A DNA stretch of 64,000 nt from Nitrospirota bacterium (lineage in GTDB: Bacteria; Nitrospirota; Leptospirillia; Leptospirillales; Leptospirillaceae). The stretch is taken from assembly GCA_021785195.1 (NCBI GenBank), contig JAJYGC010000022.1, forward strand, positions 1 to 64,000. The letters run 5' to 3'. Positions 43,965 to 52,400 of this stretch are shown one piece after another. A program made the translations under genes and the position numbers. Every line of letters starts with the position of its first letter. Within the stretch, counting starts at the first letter, position 1. A model generated the notes under the pieces. It worked only from the letters and a program-made list of their open reading frames with translations. It was not told the origin of the DNA and made no database searches.

Positions 43965-45164
43965 ATGGAATTCAAGCGCATTAACCAGCTTCCCCCGTAT
44001 GTATTCAGCATCGTGAATGAAATGAAGGTCGACTTCCGGAGGCGGGGGGAAGACATCATCGACCTTGGGATGGGAAATCCTGACCTTCCGACTCCTCCGT
44101 CCATCGTGGAAAAGCTTGTCGAAGCGGCCCGCAATCCCAGAAACCATCGTTACTCGGCTTCCAAGGGGATCCCCAAGCTTCGGGAGGCGATTTGCGCCTG
44201 GTACATGCGCCACTACGGCGTTGTCCTGAATCCCGACAAAGAAGCGGTGGTCACCATCGGATCAAAGGAAGGGATCGCGCATCTGGCCTTGGCCACAATT
44301 GACCGGGGCGACAAGGTCCTGGTTCCGAACCCGACCTATCCGATCCATGCCTTCAGTTTTGCGATGGCCGGGGCGGAGGTCTGCTCCTTTCCAATGCATC
44401 CTGACCGCAATTCCTGGACTGAGTTCCAGGAAGCCCTCGAAAAAATGGGAGGATACCCAAAGGCAGTCCTCCTGTGCTATCCGCACAACCCCACCACACT
44501 GACCGTCGAAGAGGGTTTTTTTGAGAAGGTGGTTGCCCTTGCCCATGAAAGGGATTTCTTTGTCATCCACGACCTGGCTTATGCGGACATCACCTTTGGC
44601 GGGTACAAGGCCCCGAGCTTTCTCGCTGTCCCCGGGGCACGGGAAGTCGGAGCCGAATTCTTTACCCTTTCCAAATCCTACAACATGCCGGGATGGCGGG
44701 TTGGCTTCCTGGTCGGAAACAGCCAGATCGTGGGGGCACTGACCAGGCTCAAGAGCTATCTCGACTACGGGATGTTCCAACCGATCCAGATTGCCAGCAT
44801 TCTGGCCCTGAACCAGCTGGACTCCGTGCCGGGACAGATTTCCAGCATCTATGAAAAACGCTGCAAGGTTTTGGTGGAAGGTCTCAATCGGGGGGGCTGG
44901 GCAGTCACGATGCCAAAGGGTTCGATGTTCCTGTGGGCCAGAATCCCAGCAGCCTATCGCCAAATCGGGTCCCTCGAATTTGCAAAGATGTTGATGTCAG
45001 AAGCACAGGTAGGGGTTTCCCCCGGAATCGGGTTTGGCTCCGAGGGAGACGAGTACGTCCGGTTTGCCCTGGTGGAGAATGAAAACAGGATCCGCCAGGC
45101 CACCATGAACATCAAGAGATTTCTGGCACGAACGGAAAGGGCCGAAGTAGGCGGGAGTCGATGA
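43965..45164 (+). CDS. Class I aminotransferase (AlaC / LL-DAP-aminotransferase-like group)
   Basis: This is a 399-residue PLP enzyme. FKRINQLPPYVFSIVNEMK, DLGMGNPDLPTPPSIVEKL, YSASKGIPKLREAI and the PLP-lysine motif TLSKSYNMPGWRVGFLVGN match the AlaC group, whose members make alanine or act in the aspartate family. It stands upstream of hom-thrC-lysC, which suggests a role tied to aspartate-derived amino acids. The stop overlaps an exported-protein gene by ATGA. Exact substrate pair is not determinable. Confidence 0.86.
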   Translation: MEFKRINQLPPYVFSIVNEMKVDFRRRGEDIIDLGMGNPDLPTPPSIVEKLVEAARNPRNHRYSASKGIPKLREAICAWYMRHYGVVLNPDKEAVVTIGSKEGIAHLALATIDRGDKVLVPNPTYPIHAFSFAMAGAEVCSFPMHPDRNSWTEFQEALEKMGGYPKAVLLCYPHNPTTLTVEEGFFEKVVALAHERDFFVIHDLAYADITFGGYKAPSFLAVPGAREVGAEFFTLSKSYNMPGWRVGFLVGNSQIVGALTRLKSYLDYGMFQPIQIASILALNQLDSVPGQISSIYEKRCKVLVEGLNRGGWAVTMPKGSMFLWARIPAAYRQIGSLEFAKMLMSEAQVGVSPGIGFGSEGDEYVRFALVENENRIRQATMNIKRFLARTERAEVGGSR

Positions 45165-45908: not shown

Positions 45909-47237
45909 ATGACAACCAGACATCGAAGTGAACCGGTCGTACTCGGACTGATCGGACTCGGAACGGTCGGCACGGGCTTCTTTAACCTTTTGCAAAAAGA
46001 GCAGAAACTTCTCGAGCGCAGGCTGGGATTTCCGCTCCGGCTCAAAACGATCGCCGACAGAAGGATTGAAACCAAGGCAGGCAAGGAACACCAAGGAATC
46101 CACCTCACTTCCGACGCCCAGGAGATCATCTCGGATCCGGAGATCCAGATTGTCATCGAACTGATCGGTGGAATTGAACCCGCCCGCACGCTCCTCCTGG
46201 ATTCGATCAAGGAAAGAAAATCTGTCGTGACCGCCAACAAGGCCCTGCTGGCCACTCACGGCGAGGAACTTTTTGCGGCGGTTCACGCCTCAAGGACAGA
46301 TTTTGCCTTTGAAGGGGCGGTCGGGGGCGGAATCCCAATCCTTCGATCCCTCAGGGAAGGAATTGGCGGGAACAGGATCCTTTCCATCAAGGGAATCATC
46401 AATGGAACCTGCAACTACATCCTGACCCGCATGACCTACGAACATCTGGACTTTGACACCGTGCTCAAGGATGCGCAGGCGCTTGGTTATGCCGAATGCG
46501 ATCCGTCCCTGGATATTGACGGCATGGATGCTGCCCACAAACTTGCCATTCTGGGCACTTTGTCCTTCGGGACACCGATTCCCTTTGAACAGATTCCGGT
46601 CGAAGGCATACGGGGAATCCAGATTGTCGACATTGATTTTGGTCGGGAATTTGGGTACACCCTCAAACTTCTGGGTATCGCAAAGGATCATGGATCCACG
46701 ATCGACCTTCGGGTTCACCCGGCATTTTTACCGGAAGATTCGATGCTGGCAGAGGTCGATGGAGTCTTCAATGCCGTGGAAGTCACAGGGGAATCCCTGG
46801 GACCGGCACTGTTTTACGGGAGGGGAGCCGGGGCGGACCCGACAGCCACCGCGGTCATGGGGGATGTCATGGAACTGGCCCGGGCCATCCACACGGGCTG
46901 CTTCCACCAGGTCCCCCCCCTCGGGTTTTCCTGGAATGATCGAGTCCAGCGGCCAATGACCGGACTGGACGAGGTGCGTTGTGAATACTATCTGAGGTTC
47001 ATGGCGCACGACCAGCCCGGAACGCTTTCATACCTTTCGGGAGTTCTCGGAACCCACGGGATCAGCATCGAATCGGTCATCCAGAAGGGCCGTAAAAAGG
47101 GGGGGAGCGTGCCTGTCGTCATCCTGACCCATACTGCTCCGGAATCGAGCGTCCGGGCTGCCCTCCAAATTATTGACAGATCAACCCACGTGACGGAACC
47201 AACCGTCTTGATCCGCGTGGAAGGGAAAGACGAATAA
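45909..47237 (+). CDS. hom: Homoserine dehydrogenase
   Basis: Reduces aspartate semialdehyde to homoserine with NAD(P)H. The 442-residue protein has the Rossmann motif LIGLGTVGTGFF (residues about 13-24), TANKALLATHG, the catalytic segment AVGGGIPILRSLREGI and GTCNYILTRMT, and DIDGMDAAHKLAIL. A C-terminal ACT domain begins near residue 355 (FMAHDQPGTLSYLSGVLG), which implies feedback control by threonine. Its stop overlaps the thrC start by one base (TAATG). Confidence 0.95.
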   Translation: MTTRHRSEPVVLGLIGLGTVGTGFFNLLQKEQKLLERRLGFPLRLKTIADRRIETKAGKEHQGIHLTSDAQEIISDPEIQIVIELIGGIEPARTLLLDSIKERKSVVTANKALLATHGEELFAAVHASRTDFAFEGAVGGGIPILRSLREGIGGNRILSIKGIINGTCNYILTRMTYEHLDFDTVLKDAQALGYAECDPSLDIDGMDAAHKLAILGTLSFGTPIPFEQIPVEGIRGIQIVDIDFGREFGYTLKLLGIAKDHGSTIDLRVHPAFLPEDSMLAEVDGVFNAVEVTGESLGPALFYGRGAGADPTATAVMGDVMELARAIHTGCFHQVPPLGFSWNDRVQRPMTGLDEVRCEYYLRFMAHDQPGTLSYLSGVLGTHGISIESVIQKGRKKGGSVPVVILTHTAPESSVRAALQIIDRSTHVTEPTVLIRVEGKDE

Positions 47238-48301
47238 TGCGCAAGGAATGGCCTGGAATCATCGAACACTACCGGGATTTTCTGCCCGTTCTTCCCCACA
47301 CCAGGCCTGTCACGCTTTTGGAAGGGGGGACACCCCTTCTTCCGCTGGAACGGATTCCGGAGAAACTGGGGATCAAGATTTCCCTCTTTGCCAAGATTGA
47401 AGGACAAAATCCAACGGGAAGCTTCAAGGACAGGGGAATGACCCTGGCCGTCACAAAAGCCCATGAAAGGGGTGCCAAGGCCCTGATCTGCGCCTCGACA
47501 GGGAATACCTCAGCCTCAGCGGCGGCCTATGGAGCCAGAGCCGGCCTGAAGGTCTACGTGGTGATTCCCGAGGGGAAGATTGCCAAAGGGAAGCTCGCAC
47601 AGGCGGTCATGCATGATTCTGTGGTCATCCAGATCCAGGGCCTCTTCGATGAAGCGCTCCAGGTAGTCCGGGAGATTTCCGAAACCCACCCGGTGGCCCT
47701 GGTCAATTCGGTCAATCCCGATCGTCTGGAGGGACAGAAGACCGTCTCCTTCGAAATCTGCGATTTTCTGGGACATGAACCGACCTACCATTTTCTCCCG
47801 GTCGGCAACGCGGGAAACATCACTGCGAGCTGGATGGGCTACAGGGAATACAAGATGGCGGGAAAAATGCGCGAATTGCCCAGAATGGTCGGGGTTCAGG
47901 CCGAGGGAGCCGCGCCGATCGTCAAGGGACACATCGTTGAAAAGCCCGAAACGGTGGCTTCGGCCATCCGGATCGGAAACCCGGCGTCATGGCAGGGGGC
48001 GCTGAAGGCAGCCTCCGAATCGCGCGGGGAGATCATTGCATTGAGCGACGAAAGGATCCTCGAAGCCTACCGTATGCTGGCCCGGGAAGAGGGGGTTTTC
48101 TGTGAACCCGCCTCTGCCGCCTCTTTGGCGGGAGTGATCGAATATGCCAGGAACGGCCGCTTCCTTTCTGGCGAAACCGTGGTCTGCACGCTGACCGGCC
48201 ATGGACTCAAGGATCCTGAAACAGCCCTTTCCACCCCCCATTCAGAGATTCGGGTGCCTCCAGGAAAAGAAGCCGTATTGAAAGTCCTGGGGTTCCACTG
48301 A
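47237..48301 (+). CDS. thrC: Threonine synthase
   Basis: PLP enzyme converting O-phosphohomoserine to threonine. The 354-residue protein has LLEGGTPLLPLERI, the PLP-lysine motif NPTGSFKDRGMTLAV (Lys at about 62), STGNTSASAAAYGARAG, and VGNAGNITASWMGY. Length fits the short bacterial group. It is tightly coupled to hom and followed after 69 bases by the ApgM-like gene. Confidence 0.95.
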   Translation: MRKEWPGIIEHYRDFLPVLPHTRPVTLLEGGTPLLPLERIPEKLGIKISLFAKIEGQNPTGSFKDRGMTLAVTKAHERGAKALICASTGNTSASAAAYGARAGLKVYVVIPEGKIAKGKLAQAVMHDSVVIQIQGLFDEALQVVREISETHPVALVNSVNPDRLEGQKTVSFEICDFLGHEPTYHFLPVGNAGNITASWMGYREYKMAGKMRELPRMVGVQAEGAAPIVKGHIVEKPETVASAIRIGNPASWQGALKAASESRGEIIALSDERILEAYRMLAREEGVFCEPASAASLAGVIEYARNGRFLSGETVVCTLTGHGLKDPETALSTPHSEIRVPPGKEAVLKVLGFH

Positions 48302-48370: not shown

Positions 48371-49528
48371 ATGCCATGCAAGCACCTTGTTCTGATTCTG
48401 GATGGTCTCGGGGAGCCGGAGTTCCCGTCAACACTCGAACGGGCTGCCACCCCCTTCCTTGACCGGCTGGCAGGAGAGGGCACGGTAGGACTTCTCGACA
48501 TCCATGATCCGGACGACAAAAGAGTCCCTTCCTCCGAAAGGGGGATCCTTTCCCTGTGCGGGGCCTTGGATATCCGGGATTCCGTCGCAAGGGCTGAACT
48601 CCTGACCAGGGGAATGGATTTGGGACCTTCAATGCGATGCCCCCAATGGGTATGGCTGCTCAATCCCGCGAGGGTCCAGGATGGCAGGCTTGAATCCTTT
48701 GTGGAAACAATGCCTCTGCACACTTTCTGGGAGGGTTTCCTCGGCCGGGCCAGTCGGGCAGAGGAAAAATGCGGGTTCCGCTATGTTCCGATCCGGCGCG
48801 AGGACGGGGCGATCACCAGAATGGCGGCATTTCTCCCGATCGGGGAAACGGTTCCTCCCGAATCTCCGGTCCCAAGAATCGGAGAATTTCTTCCCGATGA
48901 CGGAGGAATCCTCGGGGACCTGATCCGGGAATCCTCCCTTTTGGTCCCCCCTCATCCGGAGTTTAATTGCGTATGGCCATGGGGCATGGGAAAATGGTCA
49001 CCAGAGTCCGAACTCCCTCCCGACAGGAAGGAGGGCAGGCGCTGGATGGTGGCTGCAGTTCCGCTGGCCCGCTCGATCGGAAGGTGTCTCGGTTGGACGA
49101 TCCCTTTGGTACCTGGAGGCACGGGAGATACGGACACATCCCTTGAAAGCAAGCGGGATGTGGTCCTGTCCGCTTTGTCGGACCCAAAAACAACCCATGT
49201 CTTTTGCCATATCGAAGGATTCGACCTCGCCAGCCACCGTCAGGAGCCGAAAGAGAAGCAGTCCTTTCTGGAACGGTTCGACCGGGTGTTTGGCCCGGCC
49301 CTACTGCAGGCCATCGAGGAGGGGGAGGTAGACAATCTTTGGCTCACCTGTGATCATTTGAGTTCGCCGATCACCGGGAACCACGAACAAGGACCGGTCC
49401 CGTTCCTTCACCGGGCCCGGATGTCACGGAACATTCCTCACCAGGGTTCCGGGCGATTTGAGGAATCCTCTGCCAGGCGGGGCCCAAGGCTGACGATCGT
49501 CCAGTGGAAAGAATGCATTGAACTGTAA
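48371..49528 (+). CDS. ApgM-like cofactor-independent phosphoglycerate mutase family; possible homoserine kinase
   Basis: This 385-residue alkaline-phosphatase-superfamily protein has the metal Asp in VLILDGLGEPE (residue 11) and a candidate catalytic Ser in VPSSERGILSL (residue 54 or 55). Metal ligands lie in CHIEGFDLASHRQEPKEK and TCDHLSSPITGNHEQGPVPF (D-H and H motifs). This is the archaeal-type ApgM fold. Database annotators call some bacterial members proposed homoserine kinases when they sit beside threonine genes. Here it lies between thrC and lysC, and no GHMP-type ThrB is in the window, so that role is likely but inferred. A 3-phosphoglycerate mutase role remains possible. Confidence 0.78.
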   Translation: MPCKHLVLILDGLGEPEFPSTLERAATPFLDRLAGEGTVGLLDIHDPDDKRVPSSERGILSLCGALDIRDSVARAELLTRGMDLGPSMRCPQWVWLLNPARVQDGRLESFVETMPLHTFWEGFLGRASRAEEKCGFRYVPIRREDGAITRMAAFLPIGETVPPESPVPRIGEFLPDDGGILGDLIRESSLLVPPHPEFNCVWPWGMGKWSPESELPPDRKEGRRWMVAAVPLARSIGRCLGWTIPLVPGGTGDTDTSLESKRDVVLSALSDPKTTHVFCHIEGFDLASHRQEPKEKQSFLERFDRVFGPALLQAIEEGEVDNLWLTCDHLSSPITGNHEQGPVPFLHRARMSRNIPHQGSGRFEESSARRGPRLTIVQWKECIEL

Positions 49529-49549
49529 AGGAAGGTGGAACGGATAGAG

Positions 49550-50785
49550 ATGGCACTGATCGTTCAGAAGTTCGGTGGCACATCGGTCGGATCGATCGAA
49601 CGGATTCGCAAGGTGGCACAGATCGTCCGGGAAACGTGGGAATCCGGACATCGTTTGGTGGTTGTCGTTTCTGCGATGAGCGGAGAAACAGACAGGCTGC
49701 TCCGCCTTGCCTATGAGCTTTCGGCTGAACCCCATGAGCGGGAAATGGACATGCTGCTCTCTTCGGGGGAACGTGTGACAAGCGCCCTTTTGGCCATAGT
49801 GCTCAATGAGATGAAAATTCCGGCCCAGTCCATGACCGGCAGGCAAGTGGGAATCAAGACGGATAGCGTCCACACCAAGGCCCGGATCGCCAGCATCTCG
49901 TCCGAACGTCTTACGGAAACCCTCCAGAAGGGAATCATTCCGATCGTAGCGGGTTTCCAGGGCATTTCCGCCGAAGAAAACGTCACGACGCTAGGACGGG
50001 GGGGATCGGATACGACAGCGGTGGCCCTTGCTGTCGCGGTCAAGGCAGACCGTTGCGATATCTATACTGATGTTCTTGGAGTCTATACAGCGGATCCCAA
50101 TCTGGTTCCATCCGCCCGGAAACTCGACCAGATCTCCTATGAAGAGATGCTCGAAATGGCCTCTTTGGGGGCCAAGGTCCTTCAGACAAGATCCGTCGAA
50201 TTTGCCATGAAATACAAGATGCCCGTCAGGGTCCGCTCCACATTCTCGACAGATCCCGGCACCCTTGTGACGGAAGAGGAGAAACGGATGGAACACATTG
50301 TCGTTTCAGGAATCACATTGGACAAAAACCAGGCCAAGATCACCGTTCAGGATGTCCCTGACAAACCCGGTCTGGCCGCCCGCCTGTTTGAAACCATTTC
50401 AAGCCAGTCCATCGTCGTGGACATGATTGTCCAGAATGTGGGCCAGGATGGACTGACCGACATTTCGTATACCGTGCCGCGTTCGGACGCCCGGAAGGCA
50501 GAGCGACTTGCCGCCCAGATCGCCAGCGAGATTGGTGCGGGGGAGATCAAGATCAAGGAAGACATCGTCAAGATTTCCATCATTGGCGTCGGCATGCGAT
50601 CCCATTCCGGCGTGGCCGCCCGAATGTTTTCCACGCTCGCCCGCGAAGGGATCAACATTCTGATGATTTCCACCTCCGAGATCAAAATCTCCTGCCTGAT
50701 CGATGAAAAATATTCCGAACTGTCAGTGAGGGCCCTTCATGAAGAGTTTCAGCCGGAAACCAGGGGAACCCTCCATGAAGGCTGA
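49550..50785 (+). CDS. lysC: Aspartokinase, monofunctional
   Basis: Phosphorylates aspartate, the entry to Lys, Thr and Met synthesis. The 411-residue protein has [16 protein letters not shown] at the N-terminus, [15 protein letters not shown] and [10 protein letters not shown] in the kinase domain. Two ACT domains follow from about residue 265 ([18 protein letters not shown] and [20 protein letters not shown]), so feedback inhibition is expected. ATG 49550 matches the family start; GTG 49535 is possible. It overlaps cimA by 11 bases. Confidence 0.95.
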
Positions 50786-52400
50786 AAACCCAAAGACGGG
50801 ATCCCTCCCTGCCGACCCCGTCCCGGAAAAAATTACGCTTTACGATACGACCCTGCGCGACGGAAGCCAGTCGGAAGATATCCATTTCACGATGGAAGAC
50901 AAGATCCGGGTGGTCGAGGAACTCGATCGTCTGGGGGTTCGCTACATTGAAGGCGGGTGGCCTGGCGCCAACCCCAAGGATATCGAGTTCTTTCAGGCAG
51001 TCCGTCGTCTTCCGCTCAAGAACAGTCGGATTGCCGCATTTGGCAGCACGAGGAAATCCGGCAATCGCACCCAGGACGATCCCGTCCTCAAGGCATTGAT
51101 CGATGCTGGAACCGAAGTCGTCACCATTTTCGGAAAATCCTGGTCCCTCCATGTTGAGGAAATCCTGGGGATCACGCGGGAGGCCAATCTCGAGATGATT
51201 CGTGAAAGCGTCGATTTTCTGAAGCAGTCCGGACGGGAAGTGGTATACGATGCAGAGCACTTCTTTGACGGATTCAAGGAAAACCCGGACTTTGCCCTGG
51301 AAACCCTCCAGGCGGCAGCCAAGGGGGGAGCGGACTGGATCGTCCTGTGCGACACCAATGGGGGAGCGATGTCGTGGGATGTCGACTTGGCCTTTCGTGC
51401 CGCCGCCCGATCCCTCAATACCCCTCTTGGAATCCACGCGCACAATGACGCAGAGCTTGCAGTGGCAAACTCACTCATGGCGATCAGGGCCGGGGCTCGC
51501 CAGGTTCATGGCACGATCAACGGAATCGGGGAACGTTGCGGAAATGCAAACCTCATCTCGGTGATTGCAAACCTCTCCCTTAAAATGGGATTTCCGGTCG
51601 TCTCCCCCGATGAGCTTGTCAGATTGAGGCCGATCGCGTCCCTCCTTTCCGAAATCCAGAACCGGCCCCTTCCCAAGAACCAGCCCTTTGTGGGAGAGTC
51701 GGCATTTGCCCACAAGGCCGGTGTCCACGTCCACGCCATCCGGAAAAACAGTCGGGCCTACGAGCACATTCGCCCGGAATCCGTCGGCAATGCGCAACGC
51801 ATCCTCCTCTCCGAACATTCGGGTCGCAGCAACCTCATCGAAAAGGCCCGTCAATACGGAATCCCGATGGAATCCGACAGTCCGGACATCCAGAAGCTCC
51901 TGACCACCCTGAAACAGCTCGAACACGAGGGGTACCAGTTCGAGGGGGCAGAGGCCTCCTTTGAACTCCTGATGCGCTCCGCCTCCGGAACGTTCAGGCC
52001 ATTCTTCGAGGTGGACTTCTTCCATGTATTGATGGAACAGAAGGGGCACAATCCGGAAGGACTGACCGAAGCAACGATCAGGGTTAGGGTCGGGAATCGC
52101 TACGAACACACCGCAGATTTGGGGAACGGTCCGGTCAATGCCCTGGACAAAGCCCTTCGAAAGGCATTGACGGCGTTTTACCCCCAAGTGTCGTCAATCA
52201 ACCTTCTGGACTACAAGGTACGGGTTCTCACCGGCAATCAGGGTACCGCCTCCCGGGTCAGGGTCCTGATCGAATCCGGGATTCCTTCCATGAAATGGGG
52301 AACGGTGGGGGTCTCAGAAAACGTGATTGCCGCAAGCCTTCTGGCATTGAAGGACAGCATCGATTACTGCCTCCTCAAGTCAGGGGTCCAGCCCTTATGA
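50775..52400 (+). CDS. cimA: (R)-citramalate synthase
   Basis: Condenses pyruvate and acetyl-CoA to citramalate, giving isoleucine without threonine deaminase. The 541-residue protein has [17 protein letters not shown] (metal-binding Asp after the TTLRDG motif), [26 protein letters not shown] with metal His, and [12 protein letters not shown]. The C-terminal LeuA-type allosteric domain follows from about residue 400. The sequence [13 protein letters not shown] is characteristic of the citramalate rather than the isopropylmalate subgroup. ATG 50775 is taken; the stop overlaps lpxA by ATGA. Confidence 0.92.

Follow-up and report, generated by a model that had tools for sequence, protein, structure and literature searches.

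The homoserine kinase step of the threonine pathway is expected to be carried out by the GHMP kinase ThrB (TIGR00191), but this enzyme belongs to a protein family different from that of the protein described here. For Desulfovibrio a shikimate-kinase-like homoserine kinase is reported (PMC5764234). Members of TIGR02535 are proposed homoserine kinases as well; a comparative study gave a protein of this type the name ThrB2 (PMC9026213), and mutants of the Bacteroides member BT2402 are reported to require threonine in minimal medium, the same source describing that an E. coli thrB mutant was not rescued (PMC7311316). The proposal that TIGR02535 proteins are homoserine kinases is already published and not new (PMC7311316, PMC9026213). 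The other described system is the archaeal-type, cofactor-independent phosphoglycerate mutase ApgM (TIGR00306; PDB 2zkt, 3kd8 and 3idd), whose genes in bacteria are reported to have been catalogued, including two in Thermodesulfovibrio yellowstonii (PMC2964296). A literature search combining Leptospirillum with homoserine kinase yielded no paper, and none of the titles and abstract openings among the matches listed concerned an ApgM-like gene in the Leptospirillum-like group.

Here, we describe an ApgM-like gene from a Nitrospirota bacterium of the Leptospirillaceae (assembly GCA_021785195.1), found in a window, i.e. the whole stretch of DNA analysed, of 64,000 nucleotides on contig JAJYGC010000022.1. 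The gene order is aminotransferase, hom, thrC, ApgM-like gene, lysC and cimA (Table 1), which corresponds to the threonine gene neighbourhood typical of TIGR02535. The original prediction had named hom, thrC and lysC as members of an operon without ThrB; model matches confirm these three, and a profile search gave no ThrB match on the window's own contig. In all 16 family loci thrC adjoins the ApgM-like gene, and lysC is found on its other side in 14 of them, the remaining two showing a contig end or no lysC within about 1.5 kb. The six-gene order is complete in four of nine stretches of 10-11.5 kb from other families, and several others show part of it. Scans for terminators and promoters revealed 10 terminator-like sites (shuffle mean 12.2) and 7 promoter-like sites (shuffle mean 3.8, sd 1.9), on which none of the conclusions depends. 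The start of lysC is perhaps at 49550 instead of 49535, since in most relatives the alignment begins only at residue 5 or 6, but a relative of the same genus aligns from residue 1 and one further locus (L018) from residue 3.

Table 1. Positions of the ApgM-like gene, its presumed functional sites and the neighbouring genes within the window
Feature	Positions	Strand	Evidence or remark
Aminotransferase, head of gene order	43965..45164	+	
hom, homoserine dehydrogenase with ACT domain	45909..47237	+	PRK06349 507.5 bits
thrC, threonine synthase, 69 bases upstream of ApgM-like gene	47237..48301	+	TIGR00260 303.9 bits
ApgM-like protein, 385 aa	48371..49528	+	TIGR00306 126.2 bits, TIGR02535 85.9 bits, PF01676 64.3 bits; start codon ATG, limits exactly those of the open reading frame
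D11 codon, metal ligand (by alignment)	48401..48403	+	invariant in 15/15 family sequences
S55 codon, nucleophile (by alignment)	48533..48535	+	invariant in 15/15 family sequences
R74 codon	48590..48592	+	kept in TIGR02535 and mutase-side rows
R150 codon	48818..48820	+	kept in TIGR02535 and mutase-side rows
W202-P-W204-G205-M-G207, W-x-W-G-x-G motif	48974..48991	+	mutase-side rows: Leu, Arg at the two W positions
H280 ... E282 ... D285 ... H289, metal-site segment	49208..49237	+	E282 is Lys in 6/6 mutase-side rows
D328-H329 ... H338, metal-site segment	49352..49384	+	alignment
lysC, aspartate kinase, 6 bases downstream of ApgM-like gene as listed	49535..50785	+	613.6 bits
cimA, citramalate synthase	50739..52400	+	TIGR00977 725.1 bits

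The affiliation of the protein to the alkaline-phosphatase superfamily is evident from its match with PF01676 (Metalloenzyme; 64.3 bits at a cut-off of 24.3), from its core positions and from its fold. Both narrower models are matched below their curated cut-offs, namely TIGR00306 (apgM) with 126.2 bits (1.6e-36; cut-off 320) and TIGR02535 with 85.9 bits (cut-off 446.3), where the best stretch covers positions 213-383 of the 397 in the profile. The ApgM-like protein has matches to 7 NCBIfam families (E ≤ 0.01) and to 2 Pfam families (E ≤ 0.1), none of which is a GHMP or ThrB model, and a Pfam search did not find PF10143. An identity with PhpG (NF038358) was considered and rejected (69.5 bits compared with 545). 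The structure, predicted with good confidence (pLDDT 89.5, pTM 0.89), shows its nearest fold in 2zkt (Z 31.9, rmsd 4.1, 342 aligned residues, 24% identity), which is also the nearest solved structure by sequence, and by fold the nearest ones are 2zkt, 3kd8 and 3idd. Among 16 fetched loci the 13 closest originate from Leptospirillum sp. (2) and Nitrospirae bacterium (11), and the other three from Oscillospiraceae, Segatella and Prevotellaceae.

That the protein encoded between thrC and lysC retains its metal ligands and serine had also been predicted, and this is borne out when the protein is aligned with ApgM sequences, among them PDB 2zkt and 3kd8. The alignment, together with the ligands of the family, identifies D11, S55, D285, H289, D328, H329 and H338 as the metal and serine core positions. 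The family alignment covers 15 sequences and omits the partial 16th match at a contig end (G020) as well as the additional partial copy of G002; the interrupted gene of G205 is likewise not part of it. Invariant in these 15 sequences are 62 of 385 positions including all seven core positions (chance 2e-6), and with family f2 added (18 sequences) 39 positions are invariant and again all seven are included (chance 7e-8). The W-x-W-G-x-G motif is found in all 15 family sequences, and W202, W204 and E282 are as in all 38 canonical TIGR02535 rows (34 distinct, including K_Oscil from just under the TIGR02535 cut-off), whereas the six mutase-side rows uniformly exhibit Leu, Arg and Lys; these distinguishing marks were derived here and are not curated ones. 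Compared with the ApgM mutases, the protein thus shares the fold and the metal and serine core, but it shows Trp-x-Trp for Leu-x-Arg and Glu282 for Lys, resides in a threonine operon and reaches 126.2 of the 320 bits demanded by their model.

The canonical rows share 69 invariant positions. All 15 family sequences retain 29 of these, and 21 are retained by no family sequence. Within the PF10143 stretch, taken here as the cap, 12 of the 24 canonical invariants have disappeared from all family sequences, compared with 9 of 45 elsewhere (Fisher 0.014), the cap losses being called from an alignment at about 21-30% identity. Examples of lost cap residues are Y65, E78, D92 and R96 (own numbering), and S55, R74 and R150, which belong to this stretch too, are retained. 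Both canonical-type proteins scanned contain PF10143.

In the phylogenetic tree, reconstructed from 53 of 86 sequences (near-duplicates and the G130 sequence of f24 being left out), a split with support values of 100/99 separates the mutase side from the TIGR02535 side, and the own family f1 and family f2 belong to the latter. They branch outside the canonical TIGR02535 rows with long stems (0.9 and 1.12), and the tree carries a warning that long branches may meet. Together with the operon place and the W-x-W-G motif this topology sets the gene beside TIGR02535 and not beside the ApgM mutases, and in this respect its descent still points to homoserine.

The genome investigated (1.41 Mb in 22 contigs, 64% complete) contains a GHMP ThrB on a contig other than that of the window (G000:C2:2117-3022). 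It was detected by profile search with 197.9 bits (cut-off 168.25) and passes two curated homoserine kinase models. ThrB exceeds the cut-off in 18 of the 21 family genomes, the GLGSSAA motif is intact in all 12 ThrB loci examined, and the thrB gene neighbourhood is conserved in the three relatives compared. In conserved order, thrB of this family (L034 in the genome investigated) is flanked by a bacterial proteasome cluster and a gene resembling dihydroorotate dehydrogenase, these names being given from reading frames. A second GHMP match (G000:C18; 42.5 bits, under the ThrB cut-off) is taken as putative IspE-like protein. A predicted phosphoglycerate mutase, dPGM, is located on still another contig (G000:C20:49175-49753) with two matching stretches of 164.2 and 85.8 bits. 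It carries the RHGQSQWN motif, and its match skips profile positions 122-145, as befits a short form. Over its cut-off dPGM occurs in 18 of 21 family genomes, and gpmI in none of the 21. The ApgM-like gene itself is present in 16 of these genomes, of which 14 have ThrB and 13 both ThrB and dPGM; the exceptions (G014, G019, G020) are only 70-81% complete. All three genes occur in G003, a genome of one contig and 99% completeness. Contamination as source of ThrB was considered and rejected because the order on the thrB contig is kept in three relatives and because this one-contig genome has all three genes. The genome investigated is incomplete, yet the argument relies mainly on genes that were found and less on genes that are missing.

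With ThrB and dPGM on other contigs, the ApgM-like gene therefore fills no empty homoserine kinase step, and its product is not the sole candidate for a phosphoglycerate mutase. The original prediction would have been contradicted by a functional ThrB elsewhere in a genome with no other phosphoglycerate mutase; a ThrB was indeed found, but a dPGM was found as well. An annotation that fills a missing ThrB with its operon neighbour, the first choice here, looks right when judged by the operon and would be wrong for this organism. TIGR02535 proteins and the ApgM-like protein have in common the position in the threonine operon, the W-x-W-G motif, Glu at 282, the metal and serine positions and the side of the tree, but the latter attains 85.9 of 446.3 bits, has lost many cap residues and coexists with both GHMP ThrB and dPGM. 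Absence of GHMP ThrB from the genome is a usual though not absolute trait of TIGR02535, and the genome investigated departs from it.

In the whole phylum, matches to TIGR02535 occur in 217 of the 245 genomes (in 118 over its cut-off), and ThrB exceeds its cut-off in 36. By a hand tally 187 genomes have a strong TIGR02535 match, 30 a weak one and 28 none, where strong means E of at most 1e-60, a line chosen here that admits family f10 proteins with incomplete site, and where 8 of the genomes without match are unnamed in the tallied table. ThrB is found in 3 of the 187 genomes with strong match versus 33 of the 58 with weak or no match (hand tally; Fisher 1e-21, a value that overstates independence because the genomes are related). 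Strong TIGR02535 matches and ThrB thus mostly exclude each other across the phylum. Of the three exceptions having both, G182 lost three core positions and G118 and G027 (the latter 6% contaminated) lost none. Since these two keep all seven positions, gain of ThrB alone does not force a change. HSK-II (TIGR00938) was rejected as explanation, with no genome of the 245 over the cut-off and three weak matches below it.

The gene evolves faster than its neighbours. Its dN/dS ranges from 0.17 to 0.37 in eight pairs (with dS > 1 in three of them), compared with 0.015-0.070 for thrC (eight pairs, three of which cover only 41, 91 and 268 codons) and 0.033-0.050 for lysC (seven pairs). On average the ratio is some six times as high as for thrC and lysC and well under 1, i.e. 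the constraint is weaker than on the neighbours, yet real.

From the sequence data we consider, with roughly even confidence, that the ApgM-like protein would be a phosphotransferase or phosphatase still active in the threonine branch, in a repurposed or auxiliary capacity. The gene derives from the ApgM-like gene that the phylum carries in its threonine operon, with TIGR02535, the proposed homoserine phosphotransferase, as canonical form. In the own family an ordinary GHMP ThrB would now make O-phosphohomoserine and carry the main flux, and the ApgM-like protein may have been freed for a secondary job. Most likely it would act as two-metal phosphotransferase or phosphatase via a Ser-phosphoenzyme, with altered specificity because the cap appears partly rebuilt. 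Its candidate substrate is a small phospho-compound from this branch, in the first place homoserine or O-phosphohomoserine, as suggested by operon and descent. Operon place, family descent, the intact core, the lost cap residues, the presence of ThrB and dPGM elsewhere and the fast but constrained evolution are what the data show, and the activity, the substrate, the leading part of ThrB and the direction of flux are what we infer. The lost cap residues could also reflect decay instead of rebuilding. It is unlikely that the whole protein is a decaying or non-catalytic remnant which the threonine branch retains for structural or regulatory purposes, a view with which the raised dN/dS would agree, as would the stops within the corresponding operon gene of G205, which belongs to another family, and the core positions lost in G130 (all seven), in G182 (three) and in family f10 (at least one in 22 of 22 sequences). 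Site loss at that operon place has therefore happened elsewhere in the phylum, but all 15 sequences of the own family (all 18 when f2 is included) share the seven positions without exception, dN/dS stays well under 1 and thrC is a constant neighbour in 16 of 16 loci.

After takeover by ThrB the enzyme may also have been turned to a new reaction, its core being retained and its cap largely remodelled, for example as O-phosphohomoserine phosphatase or as an enzyme that transfers phosphate to another aspartate-family acceptor and so adjusts the flux between threonine and lysine; we regard this as unlikely. Quite unlikely is a homoserine kinase still at work, either redundant with ThrB, or under other conditions, or with a phosphoryl donor other than ATP. 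The operon with hom and thrC, the tree position on the TIGR02535 side, the conserved W-x-W-G and E282 and the threonine requirement reported for BT2402 mutants in minimal medium (PMC7311316) are in its favour. Against it stand the ThrB of the own genome and of 18 among the 21 family genomes, a TIGR02535 score of 85.9 at a cut-off of 446.3, the lost conserved cap residues, the failure of BT2402 to rescue the E. coli thrB mutant as reported (PMC7311316), and the scarcity of ThrB among genomes with strong TIGR02535 match (3/187 versus 33/58). A role as the organism's phosphoglycerate mutase is highly improbable. The nearest solved structures are named phosphoglycerate mutases (2zkt by sequence; 2zkt, 3kd8 and 3idd by fold) and none of the 21 family genomes has gpmI, but the RHGQSQWN-bearing dPGM of the own genome, dPGM in 18 of 21 family genomes, Trp-x-Trp and Glu282 in place of Leu-x-Arg and Lys and the threonine gene neighbourhood speak against it; this alternative, which had been left beside the kinase in the original prediction, fares no better than the latter. 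Of the predicted non-orthologous homoserine kinase the displacement of ThrB cannot be maintained. What stands is the lineage beside TIGR02535 and not beside the ApgM mutases, and a role in the threonine branch, as in the auxiliary phosphotransferase or phosphatase preferred here, is therefore still the likeliest.

The phylum represents a natural series for the unsettled function of TIGR02535, extending from genomes with strong match and mostly no ThrB, via ThrB together with a changed cap as in the genome described here, to an incomplete metal site with neither ThrB nor HSK-II found. In family f10 (L128, L131, L179-L198), which from its gene content is guessed to be Nitrospiraceae-like, the ApgM-like protein of the threonine operon is devoid of the H338 ligand and of R74 in 22 of 22 sequences. 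All seven core positions occur together in none of the 22, although every sequence retains 15 of the 24 canonical invariants of the cap. ThrB exceeds its cut-off in none of the 14 f10 genomes searched (weak matches reach 50 bits), and HSK-II in none of the 245 genomes of the phylum. An Oscillospiraceae frame of 649 amino acids (L176:356-2302) combines a part resembling TIGR02535 (438 bits at a cut-off of 446.3) with about 250 amino acids without clear family. This fusion was rejected as functional clue since it offers no informative partner, with only DUF2620 at 0.0019 and under its cut-off. Finally, two further ApgM-like loci were encountered. One (L135; G205:C10:275831-276798), from a family other than the own one, lies between thrC and lysC and has several stop codons inside. 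The other (L021; G002:C292:6-569) lies at a contig end, where it forms a second but only partial copy interrupted by a TAG, and it may be due to contamination, the genome being 4% contaminated.
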